From Aduncisulcus paluster (taxonomy: Eukaryota; Fornicata): a DNA stretch of 21,233 bases. The position numbers were made by a program, and so were the translations under genes. The stretch lies in contig BQXS01012625.1 in assembly GCA_024181965.1 (NCBI GenBank), positions 5,987 through 27,219 on the forward strand. Reading direction: 5' to 3'. Of the stretch, positions 1,950-19,123 are shown piece by piece. The notes under the pieces were generated by a model. The model saw only the letters and a list, made by a program, of their open reading frames with translations. It was not told where the DNA came from and searched no databases. How positions within the stretch are numbered: the first letter of the stretch is position 1; every line of letters begins with the position of its first letter.

Positions 1950-4900
1950 ATGGATCGTTTTTCAAATGAGTACCCAAATAGAACATCAATTTCATTTTTT
2001 GATCGAATGGGGAAGAACTACAAGACGATACCACTTGAGAAATCATGTGTAGTGGAGCCTCTTTATAAGAATCAGGACATTCATCTTGTATTCGATCAGT
2101 ACATATCTTCACCAAGTGGCCCATCACCTTTCCAGGAATATAAACTCCCAAATGATGAAAAGAGTGGTTGGATTGGTCCATATAACGATAAGCGCCTAAT
2201 TTCGTGCACTTCTTTGAAGATTCTCGCCCGTATTACTCGATACCGTCCTGATGTCAGAATAAGACGCATCACTATGTTGGTACAGAATTTTTCTCCACCT
2301 TATAAGATGCAAATCTGCTTTTCTAAACGCAAAGAAGATTCCTTTTTTGTTGATTTTTCAAAATCCAAATCCAAAGAGAAATTTCTATATCATACCTTCG
2401 ATCTCCCAGACCTTGAAATGTGTCTAGATTTCAAAACTCTACATATTCACTTTTATAATAAGAGTAATGAACGGTGTAATGTTTCTTTGCATGGGGTTTG
2501 GTTGGAATCTGATACAGCACCCATTTCAATGGCAGATCTTGTTTCCAAACCATCAACTCATGCGAAAACTGCGAAGAAACCCTCTCGATTAACAGATATT
2601 GATATTCATCTTGCCAGTATCAGCGATGATCCCAGTATTAGTAATGCCAGGAAGATATTCCGCCAATTGGAACCCAAACTCGTAATTTTAGTGAGCAAAT
2701 CAAATTTGGTATCTCCAACCTTTATGAAAACTTCGTTGGAATTGCTTCACAAATTAATACATTTAGATCCAATGCTTATTAGGGCTTCTATTTTCCAAAT
2801 AGTTTGTGACAAGTGTCTTGAATCAATTCATGTGGCTTTATTAAAGAAACATCGCCAAAAGGAGTTAAATGTCGTCATATCCAAAATGTTTTCTCTTGTA
2901 CGCAAGATTTGTACATCCCAGAAGAAGTGTGAAGCTCCGTCACATCTGATTTCGATCATGGAGGAGTTATTGAAAGATCATGACCTCAAATCAATAATGA
3001 TCCCCAATATTATGAAGATAATGGACTTTTTGGCCCCCTCCATCGCATCAAGAACCTCTGGCTCTCCTCATGCCGAGTCTTTATCCCGAATGCTTCCCCT
3101 CGTAGCTCCCCCTGTCTTCAACAAGGATGAGTTTAGACGTTTTGTTCTTCTTGTTGAGCAACAATGGATTGATTGGCCTGAAAGGATGGGAACCGAGGAA
3201 ATATTGCACTTGGAGTTTTGTACCCCTGAGTATATTGTAGGCATTTATGACCCCTTCAAGTCAACCCCAGTTCACATCCAGACTGCACGTGCTGAATATT
3301 TCTCTCTTGTAAGAAATGTGTTCGAGAAAACAAATTACTTCCCTGAAATCTCAAGCTTCATCCAAGGAAACATACTGGAATGGGTCTTCCAATTCTCTTC
3401 AATCATCAAAGATGATAGTGAATGGGGAAAAAGTTTCGAAAATCCCACCTTCAGCTCCATGTTCATTGATTTAGCGAATATTCTGGTTTCTTGCGGCATT
3501 CACAATGTTTTCAACAATCATGTTGTTCTTACAGGAAGTATCCCTGCCATCAAAAACATCTCGATCAAATCTTTCATGATGCTTATGACAACTTTCGTGG
3601 GCATTGGAATGAGATTAGTTAATCCCATCGATGGTCACACTCTGGCTTTGGATCCATGTTCCATCCAACAAATTCATGATCTTGTGACAAGTATTTTCCT
3701 TAGCGTGTGGGGTACTATCCAACATTTAAGAGATGCTCGAGCCTTTAAACCCGTCATTGAGTTGGTGGGCAAGAAGAAGAAGACAGCCACATTTTTCCTT
3801 AAAAAACAGCAATATAAATGTGGCATTCCTTTAATTGGAATGCTGAGTGAATGGATATGTTTGGGATATAATTATAAGTTCTTTGAAGCCCCAAAAGTTA
3901 TAAAAGGAAAGAAAGAGAATCCCATTACACCGTCTCCCCTGAAAGAACTGAAGATGGTCAACGGTAAAACATTGCCGGAACTCGAACAATCATTTTTGGC
4001 GTATTTCTCCGATGCCCTCTTTGCAATGATGGAGAATAGATTTGAATACTTGAAAATAACAGATTTTTTTAATGTTATTGCGTTTTTGTCCATTCTCAAA
4101 TTTCCTGAACGCTATCAAGTAGATGATTACTGGGATCTGGACGAAGGCGACTTTAATATGTTTGGAGAAACTTATGGCGAAAAAGTGTTAAAGTTCTTTG
4201 GGGATACGATATCATCCGACGCATTATTATCAACCACCTCTTCTTCTGTTCCCAGTATTACCACTGCACCTCCTGCTGTTAAGGTTCCAGTTCAAGATAT
4301 CCAAGGCATTGGACAGCAGATCCCAGTACCACTAGGTCCCTTACAAATGGTGGAAATGCCCATGCTTGGTCAACCCGTCCATTTTGATCTCCATACCATG
4401 GCTAGCACTCTCCATACCTTGGTTAGTCTCCATCCATGGTTACTAACACCAGGGGGTCCACCACAGTTCTATCCTCCTCCTGTCCAAGAAGAGAGAGATA
4501 CCTCCACAATCCCGACTCAAGTGTCTGATTATGTGGATCAGAAAATCGGGCAAATTGAAACCAATCTCATTGCCCGCTTGGATTCTGAGACATCGAAGGT
4601 TACACAACTTGATGTTTCCGAACTGAAAGAGCAGATCAAGAGAATCGAAAGATCCCAAACGAAGTCAGACTCGGAAATCCAAGCCACAATCACTTCCATT
4701 AAGGATCAAATAGCCTCTCTCAGCAAGGAAATCGATAAAAAGGGGAAGAAGAAGGACACAAAGCAAGAGATCGAGCTTCTTAAGGGGAGCGTGTCACATT
4801 TGGAAACCACTTTCTCAAAGCTAAAATTAGATACTGCGAAGAAAATTGATAGCATTATTTCTTCTGAGAAAACATCCCAAAAAACGATTCAATCATATGA

Positions 4901-6038
4901 TGCCAAGTTCAAATCCATGAAGAAAGATAAAAAAGACCTTGAAGTGAAAGTATCTACCATTTCTGCGACCCTAGATCAGAAAATAAGTAACATTATGACC
5001 ACTTTGGAACGTTATATGGAAGAAAAAGATGAACAGATCGAGGCTAGTCACATGGAATTCAATGATCGTCTCAAGTCTTACCTTGAGAAACACGATGACC
5101 TTCAGGAACAAATCAAGTCAATAATGTCAACTATTTCCTCTTCTGCCTCTTCCTCGTCCTCCTCTTCCTCTTCTTCAGAACAAGCTGAGAAATCTGCTTC
5201 TTCTGTGGCAGATTCTATCAAAACAATGCATGATTCTATCAAAGCCATGCATAATCGAGTGTTATCGGCCTCCAAGAGAGTAGAATTCCTTCAATTTCCT
5301 CCATTAAATAGGTATATTTTTAGCCCTAATTCCTACGATATTGTATCGAAGGAAGAATATAAAGCTGAAATTAAAGAGGAGAGAGAGGAAGAAGATAAAA
5401 TCGAAGAAGAAGATAAAATCGAAGAAGAAGAGAAAATCGAAGAAGAAGAGAAAATAGAAGAAGAAGAGAAAATCGAAGAAGAAGAAGTTGAGAGTATTTA
5501 TGAATTTACTGCTGATGCCCAATCCAATGCAAACGATTTGATTGAGAAACTTAGAGAATTATCCAATGATATCAAATTAAAGAAGAAAAACCTTCGTGTG
5601 GATAAAGACAAACTTAAGGAAATGAAGAAACAAGCATCGGGCAGTGATGATGAAGCTCTCGATTTCAAGCTGCGAATTGACAATTCAAAGTCTGAGATTA
5701 CAACGTTAACTCAACAATTTATTGACATGCTATCCTCTTTGAGAGATGTGGTCAAGAAGTTCCCAAGAGAATTATCTCAATCGCTATTTTTAGACATCCA
5801 CCCTGTTGTCTTCGTCCAAAAGGAGAAAGATCCGGCCAAATTTTTAGCCAAAGGTAAAATTACGAAGGATTTGAATGTTTGGGATGGTGATAAAATCATT
5901 TTAATTTTTATTGACAAAGAATCTTTCCAGAATCAGAAGAGAAGTTTGTCTTCTAATGATTGGAATGAGATTCTCTGTTATGGAAACGGAGAATTTGGTG
6001 GAAAGGATGTCCATTTTGTCGTGAAATTCAAGAAATAA
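1950..6038 (+). CDS. Large coiled-coil protein with beta-rich N-terminal domain (1362 aa), unrecognised
   Basis: I do not recognise the whole protein. Residues about 60-190 alternate strand-like segments and end in a pattern (LHIHFYNKS...VSLHGVWLES) resembling a discoidin/galactose-binding-like beta sandwich; this is inference from pattern only. Residues about 215-750 are helical and could be an armadillo-like or other alpha-solenoid region. A Pro-rich linker follows (about 760-848, with GGPPQFYPPP), then a long heptad-type coiled coil (about 860-1060), a poly-Ser run (about 1063-1077), five EEE(D/E)KI repeats (1146-1175), and a second charged coiled coil (about 1190-1275). A compact C-terminus of about 80 residues with alternating strands ends FVVKFKK. 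There are no membrane segments or signal peptide, so it is probably cytoplasmic, perhaps a cytoskeletal scaffold. The start is the first ATG, 57 bp after the PI synthase stop. Confidence 0.85.
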   Translation: MDRFSNEYPNRTSISFFDRMGKNYKTIPLEKSCVVEPLYKNQDIHLVFDQYISSPSGPSPFQEYKLPNDEKSGWIGPYNDKRLISCTSLKILARITRYRPDVRIRRITMLVQNFSPPYKMQICFSKRKEDSFFVDFSKSKSKEKFLYHTFDLPDLEMCLDFKTLHIHFYNKSNERCNVSLHGVWLESDTAPISMADLVSKPSTHAKTAKKPSRLTDIDIHLASISDDPSISNARKIFRQLEPKLVILVSKSNLVSPTFMKTSLELLHKLIHLDPMLIRASIFQIVCDKCLESIHVALLKKHRQKELNVVISKMFSLVRKICTSQKKCEAPSHLISIMEELLKDHDLKSIMIPNIMKIMDFLAPSIASRTSGSPHAESLSRMLPLVAPPVFNKDEFRRFVLLVEQQWIDWPERMGTEEILHLEFCTPEYIVGIYDPFKSTPVHIQTARAEYFSLVRNVFEKTNYFPEISSFIQGNILEWVFQFSSIIKDDSEWGKSFENPTFSSMFIDLANILVSCGIHNVFNNHVVLTGSIPAIKNISIKSFMMLMTTFVGIGMRLVNPIDGHTLALDPCSIQQIHDLVTSIFLSVWGTIQHLRDARAFKPVIELVGKKKKTATFFLKKQQYKCGIPLIGMLSEWICLGYNYKFFEAPKVIKGKKENPITPSPLKELKMVNGKTLPELEQSFLAYFSDALFAMMENRFEYLKITDFFNVIAFLSILKFPERYQVDDYWDLDEGDFNMFGETYGEKVLKFFGDTISSDALLSTTSSSVPSITTAPPAVKVPVQDIQGIGQQIPVPLGPLQMVEMPMLGQPVHFDLHTMASTLHTLVSLHPWLLTPGGPPQFYPPPVQEERDTSTIPTQVSDYVDQKIGQIETNLIARLDSETSKVTQLDVSELKEQIKRIERSQTKSDSEIQATITSIKDQIASLSKEIDKKGKKKDTKQEIELLKGSVSHLETTFSKLKLDTAKKIDSIISSEKTSQKTIQSYDAKFKSMKKDKKDLEVKVSTISATLDQKISNIMTTLERYMEEKDEQIEASHMEFNDRLKSYLEKHDDLQEQIKSIMSTISSSASSSSSSSSSSEQAEKSASSVADSIKTMHDSIKAMHNRVLSASKRVEFLQFPPLNRYIFSPNSYDIVSKEEYKAEIKEEREEEDKIEEEDKIEEEEKIEEEEKIEEEEKIEEEEVESIYEFTADAQSNANDLIEKLRELSNDIKLKKKNLRVDKDKLKEMKKQASGSDDEALDFKLRIDNSKSEITTLTQQFIDMLSSLRDVVKKFPRELSQSLFLDIHPVVFVQKEKDPAKFLAKGKITKDLNVWDGDKIILIFIDKESFQNQKRSLSSNDWNEILCYGNGEFGGKDVHFVVKFKK
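5385..5492 (+). repeat. In-frame 18-bp tandem repeat coding EEE(D/E)KI
   Basis: Five near-identical 18-bp units (GAAGAAGAAGAKAAAATC type) start at 5385, 5403, 5421, 5439 and 5457, with a degenerate sixth unit to 5492. Each encodes Glu-Glu-Glu-(Asp/Glu)-Lys-Ile, giving an acidic helix. Units differ by single bases (GAT/GAG, ATC/ATA), so the array is probably young and expanded by slippage within the 1362-residue protein gene. Confidence 0.9.
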
Positions 6039-6392: not shown

Positions 6393-7766
6393 ATGTCGGA
6401 TCGCAGAAAAGCATTTGATGAATATGATAAATATACACCCGTGCCAAAGGGATTGGGTAATATAGGAAACACTTGTTTTTTTAATTCAGCCACTCAATGT
6501 CTAGTACATTTGAAATATCTCTTCAAAGCTCTCACTGAATGGAAATATGGTACAATGAAATCTCCATTATTGACTTTAAGAAGTGAACTTCCAGTTTTGA
6601 ATCGTACTTTCATGTGGATTTTATTGCGTTCTTATACCAATCCGGAGGAAGAGACTTATGGAAGATATTTAACCCCCAGGCAATTTCACAATGCTTTTGT
6701 CCACGAATATTCTGCTTTTCGAGGCTATGGACAGCATGATTCACACGAATGTTCTGTTTTGCTCCTCGAGGCTTTGGATCTTGGGATTAAGAAGTTTTTG
6801 ATGGATAAATGTTCATATCCTAAAACAAAACCATCCCCAATTGAGGAAATATTTAACTTCCCAGTTGAACAAACCGTTACTTGTGCCCAATGTGAATGCC
6901 AATTTCTTTCTAAATCTAGTTGGATGGATCTTACTTTGGAACTTAAACGGACAAAGATTCAGCAACAATTGATGGGTAAACCATCATCTATGGCTTCTGA
7001 TGACGATCATTTACTTTATTCTATTATGGAATCTATGCCCGGTCGCGAAGAACCCAAAAAACTTTCCCCACACTCCCTTGAATATTTGTTATGGCTATTC
7101 ACTGAACCTGATCCAGTTCCTCGTGATGCAGGATATGTTTGTGAAAGGTGTTCTCTTCGTAAAGCCAAAATGTCCAATAAGAATGCTGCTTTCCAGCCCT
7201 GGTTAGATGTTTTGCACGCCAAACAGGAAGAAGCCATTGAAAAACATGGCTGTGTTATTCGTGATGGCGAAGGAGATATTGATTATGAACTTGATAAGCT
7301 TCGTAAAGATCAATCTTGGCTCCGTAGTAACAATTCTCTCTTGGTCGGTAATAGACGTGAATTATCCGCTATTATGACCGAGAAGAGACCCGTAATCCGA
7401 CGTTGTGAACTCAAAGGCCTGCCTAAGGTGTTGATGATCCACCTAAACAGGTTCAACAGTGGTGAGCGTAGAAGGAGCATGTTCTCGTCATTCTTCTCAT
7501 TTGGTGGGTCAAAGGACGATACCTCCATTCAATATCCAGAATATCTCGATCTTTCTCATCTTATACCTGGATACAAATATAGATTATCATCAATCTCCAT
7601 TCATAGCGGTTCTCTTGGATTCGGACATTATACTGCTTTTGCAAGATGTGGCAAGGAATGGTACTATTTTAATGATTCCATGACAGAGCCTACTTCTCCT
7701 GTCCATGCTCTTACAGCCACCTCAGGAGCCTATATGCTCTATTATGAATTGGAGGAGGAAGAGTAA
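6393..7766 (+). CDS. Ubiquitin-specific protease (peptidase family C19)
   Basis: This is a deubiquitinase that cuts ubiquitin from proteins. The Cys box is intact: GLGNIGNTCFFNSATQCL with catalytic C28. The motif GYGQHDSHEC is the usual second conserved block. The His box SLGFGHYTAFARC supplies H412, and WYYFNDS supplies N427, the same Asn form as in USP2. Two CxxC pairs (C164/C167 and C250/C253) form the zinc-ribbon of the fingers subdomain. At 457 residues it is little more than a catalytic core, with no DUSP, UBL or zf-UBP domain, plus an insertion between the CxxC pairs (about 185-240) and another after them (about 275-340). I chose the ATG at 6393; the frame is open further upstream but contains no earlier ATG. 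The exact human or yeast orthologue cannot be told. The stop overlaps AGTAAA. Confidence 0.93.
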   Translation: MSDRRKAFDEYDKYTPVPKGLGNIGNTCFFNSATQCLVHLKYLFKALTEWKYGTMKSPLLTLRSELPVLNRTFMWILLRSYTNPEEETYGRYLTPRQFHNAFVHEYSAFRGYGQHDSHECSVLLLEALDLGIKKFLMDKCSYPKTKPSPIEEIFNFPVEQTVTCAQCECQFLSKSSWMDLTLELKRTKIQQQLMGKPSSMASDDDHLLYSIMESMPGREEPKKLSPHSLEYLLWLFTEPDPVPRDAGYVCERCSLRKAKMSNKNAAFQPWLDVLHAKQEEAIEKHGCVIRDGEGDIDYELDKLRKDQSWLRSNNSLLVGNRRELSAIMTEKRPVIRRCELKGLPKVLMIHLNRFNSGERRRSMFSSFFSFGGSKDDTSIQYPEYLDLSHLIPGYKYRLSSISIHSGSLGFGHYTAFARCGKEWYYFNDSMTEPTSPVHALTATSGAYMLYYELEEEE

Positions 7767-8057: not shown

Positions 8058-9572
8058 ATGAATTCAAGTATTCATCAAAAATCCGAAGATGACAAAAGAA
8101 AATTGTTAATATCTCTACGAAAACAAGTAATTAACTTAACTAGTGAACAGCAGTCTCTATCTCATCGTTTAGAGGAAGCCCCTCATATTATTGAAGAATG
8201 GAAGGAAGCTAATGAAAAAATGAAAAGAATACTTGGGCAGTTTCATGATATTTGTGAAGGTAATATGCTCTATGCAAAAAGTTTGGTAGATGAGGTTAAA
8301 GATCAAAGAATTGAAACACAAGTATCCTTAAAATTGGAAGAGGATAAATGTAAAAAGAACCTCCACGATATATCAGAAGCCCAACATTTAAAAGCGGACT
8401 GTGAGTCGAGAATGAAGGATATTGAGCAATCCATCTCCAAGACTATTCGTTTTACAATGGGTTTGAAGGCAATGAAGGCCTCTTCAAAGCTCAAAGATCG
8501 AATTCTTAAAAAGAATGTTTTAAATATGTGGAGATGGAAAACTCGAGTTTCGACTTCGAAATCTGAGATTCGTGAAAGAACGCTTGACTATTTCCAGTCA
8601 CTTCGTAGAAAGCGTTTATTAAAAATATATTTCAGAAAGATGAGAGAAAAATGTGCATACTCTCGCATTGTTAGCCTCTCCGAGGAAGCCAATGTTCAAG
8701 ATGTTCAAGAAGAATTATCAGCTTTACTTTCATCCATTGAGAAAAATACTTCCGATATTTCAACATTATCTTCAGATATTTCATCAGTTCGGTCAGAAAT
8801 TGAAGGGTTAACAACATTGTCTGGACAAACTGCCATTTCCATTTCAAAAGATCAAGAATCTGTGGAACTTCTCCAAATTTCTCTTAATGAGAAAGAAGAA
8901 CTTGTTAAACATGCCGAGGAACGTGTTTCAAATCTCCGACGTCAGTTGTCAGCTCTTGAAGAGGAAGGTGAGACCAGTCATTCCGCTGAGAGAGTACTGT
9001 CAAGTAAGCATGCTTTGAGGAGACATGAATTAAACGAAGCTTTGAAGAAATACCACGATGATATCGAAACTATTGAACACGATATGTATGCTAAAAAGAT
9101 CAGTATTGCCAAGTTAAAGGGTGAACACTCGGCTTTGTCAAAGAGAATGGCACATACTGAGCAAGGAATACATTCTCTTGGCCTTTACTCAACCAAATTG
9201 AAAGACTGCACATCTCGAGCTTCAGACTCTATCTCCTCTTTCCTCCGTAGAACTCAGGGTGAAGTAACAAGGATGGAAAGGGCCCTTGAGCATCGTTTGG
9301 CACTTATCAAGCAGTTTAAAACTCGTATGAAAGCGACAAAAGAAAGTATTTCGAAAGGAGAAGAATTGGCAGATGCTGCCGAAAAACGGACTGAAAGATT
9401 GGATCTTCAACGCATCAGAATAGAAGGGGACTACCAAAAAGAAGATGTAAGGAAACAACGGACCCATAGTGAATACATTTTGTCGAATAGATTGAGAAGA
9501 GCTGGTGCAACTCGATGTGGCGAAATGTATCTTCATATTCGTGATGGAAGAGCTATTTTGGAGGCTAAATAA
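8058..9572 (+). CDS. Coiled-coil protein with two Sfi1-like motifs (504 aa), unrecognised
   Basis: I do not recognise an orthologue. Nearly the whole protein is charged helix with heptad spacing: about 8-130, then about 215-300 and about 305-460. Between them lies a basic stretch with two Trp/aromatic motifs, ILKKNVLNMWRWKTRV (about 149-165) and RKRLLKIYFRKMREK (about 184-199). Their spacing resembles the centrin-binding repeats of Sfi1-type centrosome proteins, though two weak copies are thin evidence. There are no signal peptide, membrane segments or enzyme motifs. A role in the flagellar or basal-body cytoskeleton is a guess from composition and from two coiled-coil neighbours. A three-codon upstream frame ATG AAA TGA (8053-8061) overlaps the start codon and could dampen translation. 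Confidence 0.85.
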   Translation: MNSSIHQKSEDDKRKLLISLRKQVINLTSEQQSLSHRLEEAPHIIEEWKEANEKMKRILGQFHDICEGNMLYAKSLVDEVKDQRIETQVSLKLEEDKCKKNLHDISEAQHLKADCESRMKDIEQSISKTIRFTMGLKAMKASSKLKDRILKKNVLNMWRWKTRVSTSKSEIRERTLDYFQSLRRKRLLKIYFRKMREKCAYSRIVSLSEEANVQDVQEELSALLSSIEKNTSDISTLSSDISSVRSEIEGLTTLSGQTAISISKDQESVELLQISLNEKEELVKHAEERVSNLRRQLSALEEEGETSHSAERVLSSKHALRRHELNEALKKYHDDIETIEHDMYAKKISIAKLKGEHSALSKRMAHTEQGIHSLGLYSTKLKDCTSRASDSISSFLRRTQGEVTRMERALEHRLALIKQFKTRMKATKESISKGEELADAAEKRTERLDLQRIRIEGDYQKEDVRKQRTHSEYILSNRLRRAGATRCGEMYLHIRDGRAILEAK

Positions 9573-11803: not shown

Positions 11804-14185
11804 ATGGATCATAATGGAAACAATCCAAATGCAATATCTCATATGATCTCTGATGCATCCCCCACGAAGATGGATTGTGATGATTCCTCTTTTCCAGCTT
11901 CAAAAATAGATTTGTCAAAGGAAAAATATGCTATAAAAGATGGTGTTAATTGCGATGAAGTTTCTGATTCTTCGATTCCCACAACCATTGGTTCCCAAAA
12001 AACTATCGCTGGTTCTTCCAAAGGTCAAAAAATTAACCAAACTGAAAAATTATCTGAAATATCCTCTCCAAAACTCCAAAAAAGTTGTAAATCCACATCA
12101 AATCATCAAGAAATTCCTCATAGAAATCCCCTCTTGACTCGAACGATTGCTCCACCACCTATACCTGTTCCAAGGCCAAAATCCGTTATATCTAGCATTA
12201 ATCCAATGCAAAAAGATGCAAAGAATGATCAGAAACCCGATATTTCTTCCATTTTAGAAGAGGAAATATCTGAAGATTCCTCCTCTGCACATCCTGACAC
12301 TCAATCATCCTCATATGAACATTCTTCTTCTCCCAATATCTCTTCTCAGACGGTTCAAAATGCTTCTCTATCTCCTAATTCATCTCTTATTCATCTGCAA
12401 CGATCAATTACTTTTTCTCATCGTCAAAAAAAACTATTTGAAGAGCAACTTTCTTTTCTGCGTTCCAAAAATAGATCTCTTCAATCAGCAAATGATTCTC
12501 TTCGATTGAATATTGTCTCTCTTCAACGGGACCAAAGGAAGAAAGCTATAGATCATGAACAACAACTTCTAATGATCTCAAAGTTGCATTTACAAGAAAT
12601 AACGAAGCAAAAAAAGGAATATTCGATCGCACTTTCACATATTTCTCTGCAACAAAAGCAGATAGAAGAGATGTCATCCCTTCTCTCTGAAGCCCTTCAA
12701 AATGAGTCCAAAGTCGGTCAAGAAAACAAACAACTCATACTACGAGTGGATATGCTTAAGAAACATTTAAAGGGCGTTCTTACAAGCCAAGATGATATCG
12801 TTCAGAGAATTAAAAACATGTCTATAAAAGAAAGCAAGATAAAGTCGACTATTTCATTCTTGGATACCCGTGTTGGCACTGTTGAAGGTCAGCGTGAGGC
12901 TTGGACATCACGAATGAGGAGTGCATCCGAACGTGTTGGTTTCCTTGAGAGTGAAGTGGAAGGACTATGGGGAATTTTAGAACATCAGGAGGAGAAGAAA
13001 TGCAATGATACTTTCAAATATGATATTGGAATCCAAGCAACTCCTCTAACCTCTATTTCCAAGCCATCCTCACCTGTCGTTTCTTCTATTGCTGCCTCAA
13101 GTGATTGTCGTCTTGTAAATTCATCTGTTCAAGTCAATGCTCCGTATTCCCTGTCTTCATGGGTCGAATCAATATCGTCCAGTAATCTCGGATCTAAAGC
13201 GGCAGAAAAAGGGTCATTTTCTGTGGGAACTAAGATTGGAACCGATCCAGAACAAGACCAGTTCTCATCAATCCTACAGCTTTGTTCAGAAGTTATCCAA
13301 AAGTCTTCTTGTCTCTCTTCAAATTTATCTGGAGCTTTACATTCTATTTCGGACTCATTCAAGGTCCAGAAGGAATTGTACACTGTCAGAGCCACTCATA
13401 TATGCCAAGAAATAGATCAAGCAGTTTCTAATGCTGGTCTTTCTCAAGAATCTATAATTGGAACACAAAAAGAAGGAATTGAGGAGAGGAGAAAAGGAGA
13501 AGAGGGAGAGGGAGAGGAAAATGAAATAGAAGGGCCATCATCAGCAAACAAATCTATAAATAGAATTGAGAACGAAACAACTGAAATATTCAAAACAAAA
13601 GATGTTCCTGTTCATGAAAAATCAAAAGAGGAGGAAGAAAAGGAAGAAGATTTCAAAGTGTCGCTCTCTTCTTCAACTCGGTCTCAAAAAGACAATCACC
13701 AAAATGCTTCTTCTTCTCGAATACAAACCCCTCGATCCTCTACATTTCTTGAACGAACTGAAAGAGAGAGAGCTGGAGACTGGGATAAAGAGAACGATTC
13801 AGAGCTCCGTGATTCAAGTCAACCATCTTCCTCCTCTTCCTCCTCTTCCTCCTCTTCCTCCTCTTCCTCCTCTTCAACACCTCCAATGTCTCCAACATCA
13901 ATGTGGTTGACATCCCGCACAGAACATGACCATCACATCCATCAAAGCTCTGAATCTGCTCAAATGTCAAAGCAGAAAGATCACAAAGTTCCAGCAAGGG
14001 AAGAAATGCGAAGAATTCCATTATCATCTGAGGGAAATGAAACTGCAACTGAGCGAGATCCTTTGGAAGTGACATCAGATGAGAAAGCCATCGTCACTGG
14101 GAAGCGTGGTGGAGGTGCAATGTTCGAATTGAAAAGGAAAAAGGAGAGAAAGAAAAGGGTTTTATCATACCCAATTGATTTGTAA
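11804..14185 (+). CDS. Ser-rich coiled-coil protein (793 aa), unrecognised; its 3' end is duplicated downstream
   Basis: I do not recognise this protein. Residues 1-195 are Ser/Pro/Ile-rich and probably disordered (APPPIPVPRPK, about 116-126). A long coiled coil spans about 200-396 (RQKKLFEEQLSFLRSKNRSL onward), ending around VEGLWGILEHQEE. A Ser-rich, loosely helical region follows, then charged low-complexity sequence (EERRKGEEGEGEENE; EEEEKEED), a 17-Ser run (675-691) and a basic tail (FELKRKKERKKR). No signal peptide, membrane segment or catalytic motif is seen, so a scaffold or cytoskeletal role is the most one can say. The frame is open a little further up (from a TTG at 11795), but the first ATG is at 11804. 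The last 58 codons and 3' flank are repeated exactly 391 bp downstream. Confidence 0.83.
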   Translation: MDHNGNNPNAISHMISDASPTKMDCDDSSFPASKIDLSKEKYAIKDGVNCDEVSDSSIPTTIGSQKTIAGSSKGQKINQTEKLSEISSPKLQKSCKSTSNHQEIPHRNPLLTRTIAPPPIPVPRPKSVISSINPMQKDAKNDQKPDISSILEEEISEDSSSAHPDTQSSSYEHSSSPNISSQTVQNASLSPNSSLIHLQRSITFSHRQKKLFEEQLSFLRSKNRSLQSANDSLRLNIVSLQRDQRKKAIDHEQQLLMISKLHLQEITKQKKEYSIALSHISLQQKQIEEMSSLLSEALQNESKVGQENKQLILRVDMLKKHLKGVLTSQDDIVQRIKNMSIKESKIKSTISFLDTRVGTVEGQREAWTSRMRSASERVGFLESEVEGLWGILEHQEEKKCNDTFKYDIGIQATPLTSISKPSSPVVSSIAASSDCRLVNSSVQVNAPYSLSSWVESISSSNLGSKAAEKGSFSVGTKIGTDPEQDQFSSILQLCSEVIQKSSCLSSNLSGALHSISDSFKVQKELYTVRATHICQEIDQAVSNAGLSQESIIGTQKEGIEERRKGEEGEGEENEIEGPSSANKSINRIENETTEIFKTKDVPVHEKSKEEEEKEEDFKVSLSSSTRSQKDNHQNASSSRIQTPRSSTFLERTERERAGDWDKENDSELRDSSQPSSSSSSSSSSSSSSSSSTPPMSPTSMWLTSRTEHDHHIHQSSESAQMSKQKDHKVPAREEMRRIPLSSEGNETATERDPLEVTSDEKAIVTGKRGGGAMFELKRKKERKKRVLSYPIDL
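13826..13876 (+). repeat. Poly-Ser microsatellite (9-bp TCTTCCTCC x5)
   Basis: Five exact 9-bp units TCTTCCTCC (13826-13870) plus TCTTCA encode 17 serines in frame. The strict 9-bp period, rather than mixed Ser codons, indicates slippage expansion. A related but less regular TCC/TCT tract lies near 5133-5178 in the 1362-residue protein gene. Confidence 0.9.
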
Positions 14186-14235
14186 TGATCCTGTATTCAC
14201 AGTACTATGGAAAATATCCCTAATATCCTAAAAAA

Positions 14236-14241
14236 AATAAA
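14236..14241 (+). terminator. Candidate poly(A) signal AATAAA of the Ser-rich coiled-coil gene
   Basis: AATAAA lies about 50 bp past the stop at 14185, inside an A-rich run. An identical copy sits at 14627-14632 in the duplicated block. Confidence 0.4.
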
Positions 14242-14401
14242 GATAATCGTGCAACGATGGAACAATTCTTTAATTCGTCATCAAAATAGATTTTTACTTT
14301 GAAATCCAACATATTTATTAGAATTATATTGACCATTTCATCGAGAAATGTAAAACTAGAGTTTTCTTCTGTTTAGTGGAGGAAAGTATTCCATTATTAG
14401 T

Positions 14402-14576
14402 AAGAATTCCATTATCATCTGAGGGAAATGAAACTGCAACTGAGCGAGATCCTTTGGAAGTGACATCAGATGAGAAAGCCATCGTCACTGGGAAGCGTGG
14501 TGGAGGTGCAATGTTCGAATTGAAAAGGAAAAAGGAGAGAAAGAAAAGGGTTTTATCATACCCAATTGATTTGTAA
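14402..14576 (+). pseudogene. Duplicated C-terminal fragment of the Ser-rich coiled-coil gene
   Basis: This stretch repeats exactly the codons from RIPLSSEGN to the final DL and stop of the gene at 11804-14185. It has no in-frame ATG near its beginning; the frame opens only from a GTG at 14376, in sequence that is 3' flank in copy 1. It is therefore most likely a dead fragment created by the tandem duplication. Confidence 0.85.
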
Positions 14577-14792
14577 TGATCCTGTATTCACAGTACTATG
14601 GAAAATATCCCTAATATCCTAAAAAAAATAAAGATAATCGTGCAACGATGGAACAATTCTTTAATTCGTCATCAAAATAGATTTTTACTTTGAAATCCAA
14701 CATATTTATTAGAATTATATTGACCATTTCATCGAGAAATGTAAAACTAGAGTTTTCTTCTGTTTAGTGGAGGAAAGTATTCCATTATTAGT

Positions 14793-15112
14793 AAGAATTG
14801 TTATTCATTTACTTATTGCTAACATAAAATGCCCATAGAAATTCCAGTAGCAATTGATAGAACCGATTTTTGATAAATTCGAGTTTATTGATTTAGTACA
14901 AGTATGAAAACATTATGGATTCGTAATTGAGATTATCGCTCTTGATAAGAGTTATTTTATGATTTTATATTTTCATTGAATGAGTTTTTAAGCAGAATGA
15001 AAAGATTTTTTGACATGTTCATTTTGACATCTCCAATTTCTCCAGGGCCTCCTATCTTTTTTGGATTTTACCGTTACCATTATATTGGATTTTTATTGAT
15101 TTTATTCTGACA
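14793..15112. other. Intergenic region after the duplication
   Basis: About 320 bp of AT-rich DNA with no supported gene, RNA or repeat beyond the 7-bp leftover of the duplication at its left end. It must contain the promoter of the following gene. A pyrimidine-rich stretch (CTCCAATTTCTCCAGGGCC near 15030-15048) has a 3'-splice-site look, but no matching upstream exon was found. Confidence 0.45.
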
Positions 15113-18100
15113 ATGGATGTTTCTTCCGTTGTTCCAATTAAAGTTCCGTTTTCAGGCAAATGTCTAAAATTCATTCTTAAAGTGACAGAATGGATAGAAA
15201 AATACGGTAGATTACCTCGTCACAATGAACTTCAACGTCCTGCTCAAATATCTATTCTTATTGAATCTCTAATGGCAGCTTCTTTTCTCCAAATGAATGA
15301 CGTCATGAGATATCTCGCTATAATTATCGCTAAACATAGAAATATCAATGCTAGAATCTTATCATCTTTACCGAATGACGCTCTTAACGAGGTTTTACTC
15401 CATATTCCCATCGCACAATTATTCCGACTACCAGAATCCATCATGACTGAAAAAAAATGGTTTCTGTTGATTCATGGAAAGTTTCATCTTTCAAAACGTG
15501 CTATAGCCACCCTTCAACAAATGGGCAAACGAGCTCAAAAGATAGCTCAAAGATTTAAGGGGAATTCAGGTGTGAGAGCTGCTGCCCGAAGTATTCTATC
15601 TCCAGATGAGAATGATGCCAAAAGAATGGCCCCACTTGAGCTCGGTAAGGTAGAACGTGGTGGAATTGCTTTAGCTGGAATGAAAGAAGGAGAAGATGTA
15701 ACTTTGTTATCTCCCATTCTGCGTGAAGGAAGGATTGTTGACACATCTGATCGACGCAAACAGGTTTTAGCCGATGAACATGAGAGTGAATCGTCCACTA
15801 TTGCTGGCAACGTTAGCAGCACAAAACAGATTCATACTAAGCAACCACCGTCTGCTGCTGATATAAAAATGAAGAAGAGGATTGCAGCACGTGAACCACA
15901 ATCCATCCAAAGGTTATTCGGGGTTCCAATGCAAGGATCTTCACGTGAACAACCATCTCCATATATTCAGGAGAAAATTCGTCCCCAAACAGAAATTGTT
16001 CAGCCGAAAGAAATATTCTCACCCCTTCCAAGAACTCCCGGTCTTCGAAGAAAACGTCTTGAAGAGCAAAATAGAACAGTTTCTCAACAGCAGAGATCGT
16101 CTCCCTTGAGTAATATTTCCCACCAACAAAAACGACCAGCATCGATAACTCCTTCCCATCTCAAAGTTCCCTCTCTTTCCACAGTTGAAAAGGATGAAGA
16201 AGATGAGGGGGAAGAAGAGGAAGAGGAAGAAGAGGAAGATATCGTTGCGATAGCTTCAACAGGGAAAAGAAGCCGTCTTTCTCAATCATCTCGATCCCGA
16301 AACATATCAAAAGAAGACCATTCAGCATCTCCAATCATTGAAATGCGTAGGAAACAGATCCAAGCTCTTCAATCTATAAAGCATTCCAAGAGGAAATCTG
16401 GGTTGTACCAGCAAGTTTTAAGACATTCTCTCAATCGTCCTGAGAAAGGAATATCTCGAGGAGTTGCAACGGCACCTATTCGACGCAAAGAAGTGAAAAA
16501 AGTTAGCCATGACGCGTGGAGTAGAGTAGAAAAGAAACAGCGCATGGATGGGGGGGGGTTGACAGCTGGAAAGGATGAGGAGATTGAAGAGGATGAACAA
16601 GAGATGCTTGAAGCCTCAAATCCTCCCCAATTTGAGAAAGTTCCCGATATATCCATGTCTCCATCGTCATCCAATGCTTCTTCCTCTCAGACATTTAATG
16701 AGGAAGATGGATTCTATACTCCACATTCACCCATTGTTCATCTCTCTCAGCATCATTTAAGAGCTCCTCGACCTCGTTCCTCCATTTTCTGGGACTCTGA
16801 TCGTGATAAAATGCCAGGCGAGGGCACATTTGGGGCTGGAAAAGATGAGGAGAAAGAAGAAGAGGCAGAACTGGATGAAGAAGATGCTGAAAGGGAGAGA
16901 GATCGAAGGCAACTCCACGAGAGAAGAAATCGACCAAAAGGAAGATATTCAACCGTCGAAGAGGCATATTCTGAAGAATCTGAAAAAGATCAGGAAGTTC
17001 CTGATGAGGAAAAATTCAGGCTGAGAGATGACGATGAAGCTAAATCAGTATCGTCATTCAGTGTCAGTGAATTTGGAGTTTCAAGTATCAGTGCTCTGAG
17101 TCATGTTAAAACTGTTCAAAAAACAAGAACGCCACATCCAATATTTTTGCCCAATTCGTATGAACAAGACAATGTATTTGCAGAGACAATGTTCTCTTCT
17201 TCTTCCGTTGAATTTTGGAAGCGTATTTATGCTCAATTATTTATACAGGCGTCTATTCTCGCTCTTCCTGAAGGCGATATTCACACAACATCGAATTTCT
17301 TAGGATCTGGTGTTCCTTCAGAGATTGCGGGAAGTGCTGCCTTAACTGAGCAAAGTGCAAGCCGTTCCAATTCATTCCTGCGGTCTCCAGAAGGCAGCAG
17401 TGAAGGTGATGAGGAAGAGATCGATGGTCTCCGACGTGAATCCCGTGCCATTGGATCTGGGCATCGAAGAGAACGTAGTTGGATGTCTGACGAAGATGCT
17501 GAACTTGTTGAACATGATCGCCATGATCATCAGATTATTGGTCATCACACCCGTTCGTCTGCCCATGAGGATTCCATTCCATCTGATCATCCCCATCCTC
17601 ACCAACTTCACGTTCATCCCAGACACCCCCATAGAGATAATCAAAGGCAAGCATCCACCATGCATAGAGTTCTTTCAGCCATCTCTAATCCTCTCCCTCC
17701 TTCTGAGCATTTTAGTGAAGGCAGTGAAGGTGAGTATGTTCTTCCATTTGATGAACTACCCGTTCCTCCTGAGGTTGTCGATAGTTTGAAGCGAGAGCGG
17801 CTATATCAGAACTCAATTCAGAATCTCCAAAGTGCCTTGAAGAAAGAAAAGGAGCAAGATCAAGCAGTGAAAGGGCTGTGGAGTCCCAAATCTCCGATAT
17901 CAGAAATGGCTTCTACTCAGGCCCGTGTTCTCCAGAAAGATCATAGAAAAGATGTGTTTATTAAATTCCTGAGATATGTTAAAGATCTATCCCCTCTCAT
18001 TTCATCTCTTGTGATCCGTCACCAGAGCCCTCTGATCGTTTCTGGAGCGTGTTCCTCTATTCTTCTGAGTGGGTGGGCAAGCAACCTTGTGAGTGTTGAT

Positions 18101-19123
18101 CTTTCAAAGGTTGGACTGGGGCCGACTCATGCATCCTCGATTTGTTCAGCTTTGATGAGCAACCCATCTGTGAAACGTCTTGTGTTGGGCAATAATCGAA
18201 TTCGAGCCAAAGGATGCGAAGATATTGCACGTCTAATTATGAACCCCGATTGTCACATTGAAACACTCCATCTTGAGCATAATGGAATAGGTCCTGAGGG
18301 TGCCCAATTCCTAGCTGAAGCCATCAAATATAATGTGTCCCTGAAGAAACTCAGCCTTGGATATAACCAGATACAAGAAGAAGGCGGGATTGCTATTGCC
18401 AATGCTCTTGTTCCAAGTGATCACAGCCAGAGGAAGCTCGGGAAAATACCAGGGAGAAAAAAGGCATCGACCGTCAATATCGTCACTCTTGATCTTGCCA
18501 ATAACAATCTCCAAGACAAGGGAGCAAAGGCACTTGGAAAGATGCTGAAATCGAATACAAGTCTGAAAGTTCTCCGACTTTGGGATACATCGATGTCATT
18601 CTTGGCCGGAAAAAGTCTTCTCGAAGGAATGGAAGAAAATTCAACGCTAATTGATTTAGGAATTGGACCTAATGCCGGTTCTTCTGATGTTCGAGAGAAG
18701 ATTGTCGCTATCTGTCACAAGAATAAGAGCGGATCTCTGAAGGACCATCTTCATGGATCTGAAGGTATTGGTGTCAAAAGTGATGAAGATGTTGATGTTT
18801 ATGCATCAAGAAGGAGGAAAGAAAGAGATTTGCTGTATGGAAATGACATTCTGTGGGCGGATAAGTGGTATATTATCGATGAACATTGGTTAGATGAGTG
18901 GAGAACATTCGTCGCTTCTGATAGTCAATCTGCCCCGCCTGGACCAATTTCAAATGAACATTTGGTTGAAAAGGATGGAACACCAAAGAAAAACAAACGA
19001 AAATTGTATGATTATCGAGGAGTGAGTGGGCAAGTTTGGAGATTGTTTGCCAGGATCTATGGTGGTGGGCCTGCAATCGTACGTCCTGTGATTGATTTGT
19101 ATTCACCTCCTCTCGACGATTGA
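15113..19123 (+). CDS. SKP1/BTB-like, F-box-like, LRR and DUSP multi-domain protein (1336 aa)
   Basis: Residues about 5-76 match the SKP1 pattern: VPFSGKCLKFILKVTEWIEKYG resembles the LxxVxxWxxxH part, and LIESLMAASFLQMNDVMRYL the LxLxAANYLxIxxL part. Residues about 84-122 (SSLPNDALNEVLLHIP...EKKWFLLIHGKF) look F-box-like. The middle is disordered: basic patches, an acidic run (about 360-378), many SP pairs and a His-rich tract (about 799-845). Six or seven RNI-type LRRs lie at about 992-1190 (RLVLGNNRI, TLHLEHNGI, KLSLGYNQI, TLDLANNNL). Residues about 1248-1330 are a DUSP domain: WYIIDEHWLDEW, the hallmark PPGPISN (P1276-I1279), then VWRLFARIYGGGPAIVRPVIDLY. The LRRs and DUSP are clear; SKP1-like is likely; F-box is tentative. 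It suggests a ubiquitin-ligase substrate receptor in cytoplasm or nucleus. The ATG at 15113 is the first in frame. A G9 run lies at 16550-16558 with the frame intact. Confidence 0.88.
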   Translation: MDVSSVVPIKVPFSGKCLKFILKVTEWIEKYGRLPRHNELQRPAQISILIESLMAASFLQMNDVMRYLAIIIAKHRNINARILSSLPNDALNEVLLHIPIAQLFRLPESIMTEKKWFLLIHGKFHLSKRAIATLQQMGKRAQKIAQRFKGNSGVRAAARSILSPDENDAKRMAPLELGKVERGGIALAGMKEGEDVTLLSPILREGRIVDTSDRRKQVLADEHESESSTIAGNVSSTKQIHTKQPPSAADIKMKKRIAAREPQSIQRLFGVPMQGSSREQPSPYIQEKIRPQTEIVQPKEIFSPLPRTPGLRRKRLEEQNRTVSQQQRSSPLSNISHQQKRPASITPSHLKVPSLSTVEKDEEDEGEEEEEEEEEDIVAIASTGKRSRLSQSSRSRNISKEDHSASPIIEMRRKQIQALQSIKHSKRKSGLYQQVLRHSLNRPEKGISRGVATAPIRRKEVKKVSHDAWSRVEKKQRMDGGGLTAGKDEEIEEDEQEMLEASNPPQFEKVPDISMSPSSSNASSSQTFNEEDGFYTPHSPIVHLSQHHLRAPRPRSSIFWDSDRDKMPGEGTFGAGKDEEKEEEAELDEEDAERERDRRQLHERRNRPKGRYSTVEEAYSEESEKDQEVPDEEKFRLRDDDEAKSVSSFSVSEFGVSSISALSHVKTVQKTRTPHPIFLPNSYEQDNVFAETMFSSSSVEFWKRIYAQLFIQASILALPEGDIHTTSNFLGSGVPSEIAGSAALTEQSASRSNSFLRSPEGSSEGDEEEIDGLRRESRAIGSGHRRERSWMSDEDAELVEHDRHDHQIIGHHTRSSAHEDSIPSDHPHPHQLHVHPRHPHRDNQRQASTMHRVLSAISNPLPPSEHFSEGSEGEYVLPFDELPVPPEVVDSLKRERLYQNSIQNLQSALKKEKEQDQAVKGLWSPKSPISEMASTQARVLQKDHRKDVFIKFLRYVKDLSPLISSLVIRHQSPLIVSGACSSILLSGWASNLVSVDLSKVGLGPTHASSICSALMSNPSVKRLVLGNNRIRAKGCEDIARLIMNPDCHIETLHLEHNGIGPEGAQFLAEAIKYNVSLKKLSLGYNQIQEEGGIAIANALVPSDHSQRKLGKIPGRKKASTVNIVTLDLANNNLQDKGAKALGKMLKSNTSLKVLRLWDTSMSFLAGKSLLEGMEENSTLIDLGIGPNAGSSDVREKIVAICHKNKSGSLKDHLHGSEGIGVKSDEDVDVYASRRRKERDLLYGNDILWADKWYIIDEHWLDEWRTFVASDSQSAPPGPISNEHLVEKDGTPKKNKRKLYDYRGVSGQVWRLFARIYGGGPAIVRPVIDLYSPPLDD

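Follow-up and report, generated by a model that had tools for sequence, protein, structure and literature searches.

A possible FBXL-like ubiquitin ligase receptor with a POZ remnant and a C-terminal DUSP domain in the fornicate Aduncisulcus paluster

Results

Overall plan and coding capacity of the 1336-residue protein

The window analysed here is a stretch of 21,233 nucleotides from Aduncisulcus paluster (contig BQXS01012625.1, positions 5,987 to 27,219, forward strand). On its plus strand, positions 15113..19123 carry an open frame for a protein of 1336 amino acids (aa). In our judgement there is an even chance that this protein is an FBXL-like substrate receptor of a cullin-RING ubiquitin ligase, retaining a remnant of the POZ fold and, unusually, bearing a DUSP domain. 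The order of modules proposed in an earlier note on this DNA, namely SKP1-like, F-box-like, leucine-rich repeats (LRRs) and DUSP, holds, but its description as SKP1 plus F-box in one chain was overstated, as the POZ part amounts to half of the fold.

The frame is coding along its whole length and carries no sign of breakage or fusion. It runs uninterrupted from ATG to stop, and codon usage prefers it in 25 of 25 windows of 300 bp under a model trained on 62 other open stretches from the same genome; the margins are thinnest at 15263 (0.06 vs 0.03) and 15863 (0.03 vs -0.02). A run of nine G lies inside the frame at 16550-16558, and the same frame scores best on either side of it. Furthermore, an identical 1336-aa protein is present in the protein database.

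A. paluster is a free-living fornicate whose assembly is reported, in a passage of PMC9933649, as 29.4 Mb with 11,743 introns. The genomic sequence searched in this work comprises 7.09 Mb in 397 contigs, and 20 of the 20 contigs of stated size are at least 10 kb. These contigs probably represent the longer ones from an assembly of this kind, so absences among them carry little weight.

The C-terminal DUSP domain and the leucine-rich repeats

Residues 1250-1327 (18860..19093, plus strand) form a clear DUSP domain, matched by PF06337 at 1.7e-17 with 64.1 bits over a cut-off of 29.3. This bears out the C-terminal DUSP with a PGPI motif claimed earlier, PPGPI and IYGGGP both being present. A search with the DUSP region, whose 128 candidates were only proteins of similar length sharing short words, found 16 other proteins, and 16 of 16 contain a catalytic domain of ubiquitin-specific proteases (USPs); the closest matches are mostly named USP20 or USP33. 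An alignment of three of these 16 hits with the 1336-aa protein shows no variation at the tryptophans, PPG and IYGGGP, and all rows except one have PPGPI. The statement that DUSPs are known mainly from USPs thus agrees with every other hit, and a passage of PMC4243247 says that they occur exclusively there. In the 1336-aa protein, the Pfam scan found neither a USP (UCH) catalytic domain nor a ubiquitin-like domain (Ubl) next to the DUSP. To find this domain apart from a USP is truly unusual. Literature searches for 'DUSP domain' together with 'leucine-rich repeat', and also with F-box, surfaced only reviews, the contents of which were not used. The searched contigs hold six USP-domain matches, two of them adjoining on contig C14, and a single DUSP, that of the 1336-aa protein. 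One of these six, a USP deubiquitinase gene, is found in the window itself, at 6393-7766 (PF00443, 2.1e-43; best PDB match USP15), and lacks a DUSP.

Ahead of the DUSP, residues ~986-1200 (18068..18712, plus strand) form LRRs of the ribonuclease inhibitor (RNI) type, which confirms this part of the original description. PF13516 (LRR_6) matches four stretches at 8.4e-18, over its cut-off, and a unit scan places the starts of clear repeats at residues 1020, 1049, 1077, 1123 and 1151. The best PDB relative is ribonuclease inhibitor itself (70 bits, 8.7e-19); radial spoke protein 15, dynein regulatory complex subunit 5 and LRRC34 are also among the PDB matches. The repeats lie behind the F-box-like segment, as the FBXL class requires. 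The two are joined by a long, charged linker of low complexity (residues 137-985, 15521..18067, plus strand) with an acidic run at 361-376. Judged by its composition it is presumably disordered, and the Pfam scan found in it only Myc_N, under its cut-off.

The N-terminus resembles the C-terminal half of a POZ fold

Residues 11-76 (15143..15340, plus strand) may correspond to the C-terminal half of the SKP1/BTB (POZ) fold, an assignment that is supported, though unproven, by comparison of conserved blocks. Since the PF03931 (Skp1_POZ) profile is a weak test in this genome, whose own SKP1 escapes it, SKP1 likeness was scored by two conserved blocks in fixed order with a spacing of up to 60. In the 1336-aa protein these fall on residues 11-32, which we take to be beta3-alpha3, and 48-76, presumably alpha4-alpha5. 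The matrix was built from human, Arabidopsis and yeast SKP1, and a four-SKP1 variant adds that of A. paluster. As background served 121 sequences giving 2867 windows (1456 mostly masked, 1411 not), drawn from six-frame open stretches of at least 200 aa in the retrieved loci and the window, from the rest of the 1336-aa protein and from three USPs; the loci of the 1336-aa protein gene and of SKP1 were excluded.

With three SKP1 sequences, the query scores 48.3, followed by the genome's own SKP1 (43.7), a genuine BTB protein (locus L008, 43.3) and the next sequence at 27.3. A score of 48.3 is reached by 0 of 2867 background windows and by 0 of 3000 shuffles. With four, the query scores 41.0, again with 0 of 3000 shuffles, then L008 with 33.5, then 21.0. 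The test does not tell SKP1 from BTB, and it overlooks some true POZ domains, as the genome's second BTB protein (L009) is outside the best five. In both BTB proteins (L008 868-2457 and L009 940-2397), the BTB domain is paired with an ANAPC10-like domain.

A full-length SKP1 hidden Markov model (HMM) lends weaker support than the blocks, with 7.2 bits at residues 19-80, with its second half out of register with the block alignment. This score is reached by 1 of 20000 shuffles (16189 reported) and, in another run, by 2 of 20000 (16208 reported), and by 4 of 2713 windows, all from L008. Removal of the acidic loop from the model weakened the match to 3.7 bits, reached by 114 of 20000 shuffles and 4 of 2713 windows, again all L008. 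AlphaFold predicts helices at 15-31, 43-57 and 61-74, then at 80-84, 88-95, 100-103 and 113-121, with low confidence; they stand where alpha3-alpha5 and the F-box helices are expected, in a model whose mean predicted local distance difference test (pLDDT) score is only 52.5.

An F-box-like segment directly behind the POZ-like half

Residues 83-125 (15359..15487, plus strand) are best called F-box-like, a reading that the position and profile scores support without proving it. PF00646 matches residues 83-106 with 13.6-19.5 bits, depending on the piece used as query, against a cut-off of 20.5: the score is 17.5 bits (E 0.0038) for residues 1-136 and 19.5 bits (E 8.9e-4) for residues 79-136. The 7.09 Mb, searched in six frames, gave no F-box candidate other than this segment (18.4 bits, E 0.018), which immediately follows the POZ-like half; both points argue for the FBXL-like reading. 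The F-box-like segment proposed earlier thus keeps its place after the N-terminus, with profile scores just below the Pfam threshold.

The junction of the two elements shows what is missing from the N-terminus. Just 10 residues precede the first SKP1 block, so the N-terminal POZ half is absent and a complete fold with its N-terminal beta-alpha half is not seen; nothing in the protein corresponds to the initial ~40 residues of SKP1. The PF01466 part is the SKP1 tail that holds the F-box, and PF01466 has no match in residues 1-136. The F-box-like segment starts 7 residues past the second block, presumably at the place where the F-box-binding tail of SKP1 would begin. Since both parts are missing, the chain does not amount to a complete SKP1 joined to an F-box. 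Its N-terminus would be at most half a POZ followed directly by F-box-like helices, closer to the BTB-3-box plan.

The DNA upstream of the frame was scanned for a hidden 5' exon. The SKP1 N-terminal block, with starts from 14186 to 15170, scored 3.25 at best, and no such exon was found there; the SKP1 of A. paluster, scored by the other three (with another matrix), reaches 18.3, but the scan is not very sharp, since chance sites elsewhere in the window reach up to 15.75. No GTATGT donor, the form inferred from the SKP1 gene of A. paluster, occurs upstream of the frame; the single copy in 14186-19123, at 17734, lies inside it. This negative result covers nearby exons with that donor form only. 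Just upstream of the frame there is an exact 398-bp direct duplication with an offset of 391 (14011-14408 again at 14402-14799). The gene at 11804-14185 contributes its 3' end and spacer to this duplication, which makes up much of the spacer before the frame and is either real or an assembly effect.

A recent copy of the A. paluster SKP1 gene was also considered as the origin of the N-terminus and ruled out, because a matrix of this SKP1 alone carries no signal: the query scores 19.0, no less than which is seen in 99 of 2867 windows and in 422 of 3000 shuffles.

Candidate ubiquitin-ligase partners are encoded in the genome

A separate SKP1 gene is present in the genome (36.4 bits) and is 99% identical over 97% to a database A. 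paluster protein. There appears to be a short intron at the end of this gene (L005 1404-1493, minus strand, GTATGT ... CTAG), since the tail of the database protein differs from that of the open frame. A cullin gene (66.4 bits) and RBX-type RINGs (nine matches, seven over the cut-off, best 76.3 bits) are found as well. Because SKP1 is available, the F-box-like segment may simply bind it.

Elsewhere in the window, long proteins at 1950-6038 and 8058-9572 give weak SMC/Rad50-like matches far under the cut-offs, as coiled coils often do.

Results that weigh against a ligase receptor

Several results speak against the FBXL-like reading. Pfam finds no SKP1 (PF03931, PF01466) or BTB match in residues 1-78 or 1-136, where its only match outside the F-box is PMBR, sub-threshold at 14.4 bits vs 24.9; the PDB sequence search of residues 1-136 found no match either. 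The earlier note had expected an SKP1 or BTB profile match for residues 5-76: Pfam gives none, while the block test points the opposite way. PF03931 has zero matches in the searched contigs, the true SKP1 being missed too. The blocks were picked after the likeness had been noticed, which favours the query, and the lack of signal with the matrix of A. paluster SKP1 alone belongs here too. AlphaFold performed poorly (mean pLDDT of 52.5 and 44.7 for the two models), and no hit above noise came from structure searches with the first model. With the whole protein as query, PF00646 scores only 13.6 bits (E 0.065), no piece of the protein reaches the curated F-box cut-off required for the FBXL class, and the related model PF12937 has no match in the searched contigs. 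The neddylation domain of the cullin reaches 14.1 bits vs a cut-off of 36.9. Finally, no orthologue of the 1336-aa protein, and so none with the same domain order as had been looked for, was found in the protein database, and the rest of the searched contigs contains only partial matches of LRR type.

Taken together, the earlier portrait of an N-terminus with the SKP1 pattern survives in part: its two blocks stand out from all shuffles and correspond to the C-terminal POZ half only, with no Pfam or PDB match.

Discussion

If the 1336-aa protein is an FBXL-like receptor, each of its binding steps can be proposed from the sequence as follows. The F-box-like segment would dock on the separate SKP1 of the organism, and the substrate would be held by the RNI-type LRRs, which stand beyond the long flexible linker. 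The DUSP could offer another place to dock, either to the substrate or to a deubiquitinase. The POZ remnant (alpha3-alpha5) may pack on the F-box-like helices, where it would stabilize the box or provide a further contact to a cullin or within a dimer; the 3-box of CUL3 receptors is placed in a similar way against the final BTB helices. In favour of this reading, a passage of PMC4403949 describes a common fold for SKP1, elongin C and BTB and the union of adaptor and receptor in one chain in BTB proteins, and a passage of PMC4668279 terms the F-box, SOCS box and 3-box functionally analogous.

Among other explanations, the one that deserves most attention, unlikely as we consider it, is that the protein has no ligase role and is an LRR scaffold, such as one in the flagellum or the cytoskeleton, with a helical N-terminus merely resembling POZ and F-box. 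The radial spoke, dynein regulatory and LRRC34 relatives of its repeats would fit such a role, as would the sub-threshold N-terminal motifs. However, the POZ-like and F-box-like blocks are ordered and adjoining, each is outstanding among the sequences searched, and the DUSP points towards ubiquitin biology.

The earlier note suggested a self-contained cullin adaptor and receptor, in which the POZ half and the F-box-like helices would bind a cullin directly, without SKP1, in the BTB-3-box manner. We regard this as rather improbable. The two elements do adjoin, and BTB proteins show that such merging works (a passage of PMC4403949). On the other hand, the SKP1 N-terminal half and PF01466 tail have no counterparts, no nearby exon supplies the N-terminal half, a separate SKP1 exists, and the block test does not distinguish SKP1 from BTB. 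No natural SKP1/F-box fusion appears in the titles and abstract openings of the papers listed for one-chain F-box and SKP1/BTB proteins or in passages of PMC4403949, PMC12816148 and PMC4209131.

More speculative still, and to our mind a long shot, is a broader scenario in which a trimmed SKP1 and an F-box merged into a single-chain cullin receptor, CUL1-style on the CUL3 plan, whose DUSP recruits or activates a deubiquitinase in trans, as an intermediate on the route to SKP1/CUL1 loss in relatives like Giardia. The gene inventory of this fornicate, in a passage of PMC7029713, includes neither SKP1 nor Cullin1; therefore, the presence of SKP1, cullin and RBX-type genes and of the 1336-aa protein in a free-living relative helps to date and explain the loss.

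It is quite improbable that the protein is instead a deubiquitinase partner, its DUSP acting in trans on a DUSP-less USP such as that at 6393-7766 and bringing it to an LRR-bound target. The excess of USP domains over a single DUSP agrees with this, as does the acceleration of ubiquitin release by DUSP-Ubl in USP4 (a passage of PMC4243247), but the searched contigs are probably only part of the assembly, the USP gene may lie close by coincidence, the DUSP has no Ubl next to it in the Pfam scan, and the neighbouring USP best matches USP15 while USP20/33 are the nearer relatives of the DUSP. An artificial joining of unrelated genes into one frame, by the assembly or the gene model, to which the duplication directly upstream and the nine-G run might point, is very hard to reconcile with a frame that scores best across that run and its whole length and with the identical database protein.

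Under the FBXL-like reading, the USP-only rule stated in a passage of PMC4243247 would be broken by this DUSP in a likely E3 receptor, and a single chain would connect the addition of ubiquitin with its removal. The fusion of half a POZ to an F-box would, in turn, probe how little of SKP1 suffices to present an F-box.

Compared with known systems, the protein combines partial likenesses. The beta3-alpha3 and alpha4-alpha5 blocks are common to it and SKP1, whereas SKP1 alone has the N-terminal half and the PF01466 tail. Its DUSP shares the conserved tryptophans, PPGPI and IYGGGP with those of USP20/USP33 (and USP4/11/15), which, unlike it, possess a USP catalytic domain. As in the BTB-3-box/BACK receptors of CUL3 ligases (Keap1, SPOP), a POZ-type element, helices and a substrate reader stand in one chain, but here only the C-terminal POZ half is present, F-box-like helices come next, and no Kelch or MATH was found. 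From the FBXL receptors of SCF ligases it differs in the POZ half before the box, the linker of ~850 residues, the RNI-type repeats, the C-terminal DUSP and an F-box under the Pfam cut-off; with them it shares the basic plan of an F-box or F-box-like element near the N-terminus and LRRs behind it.

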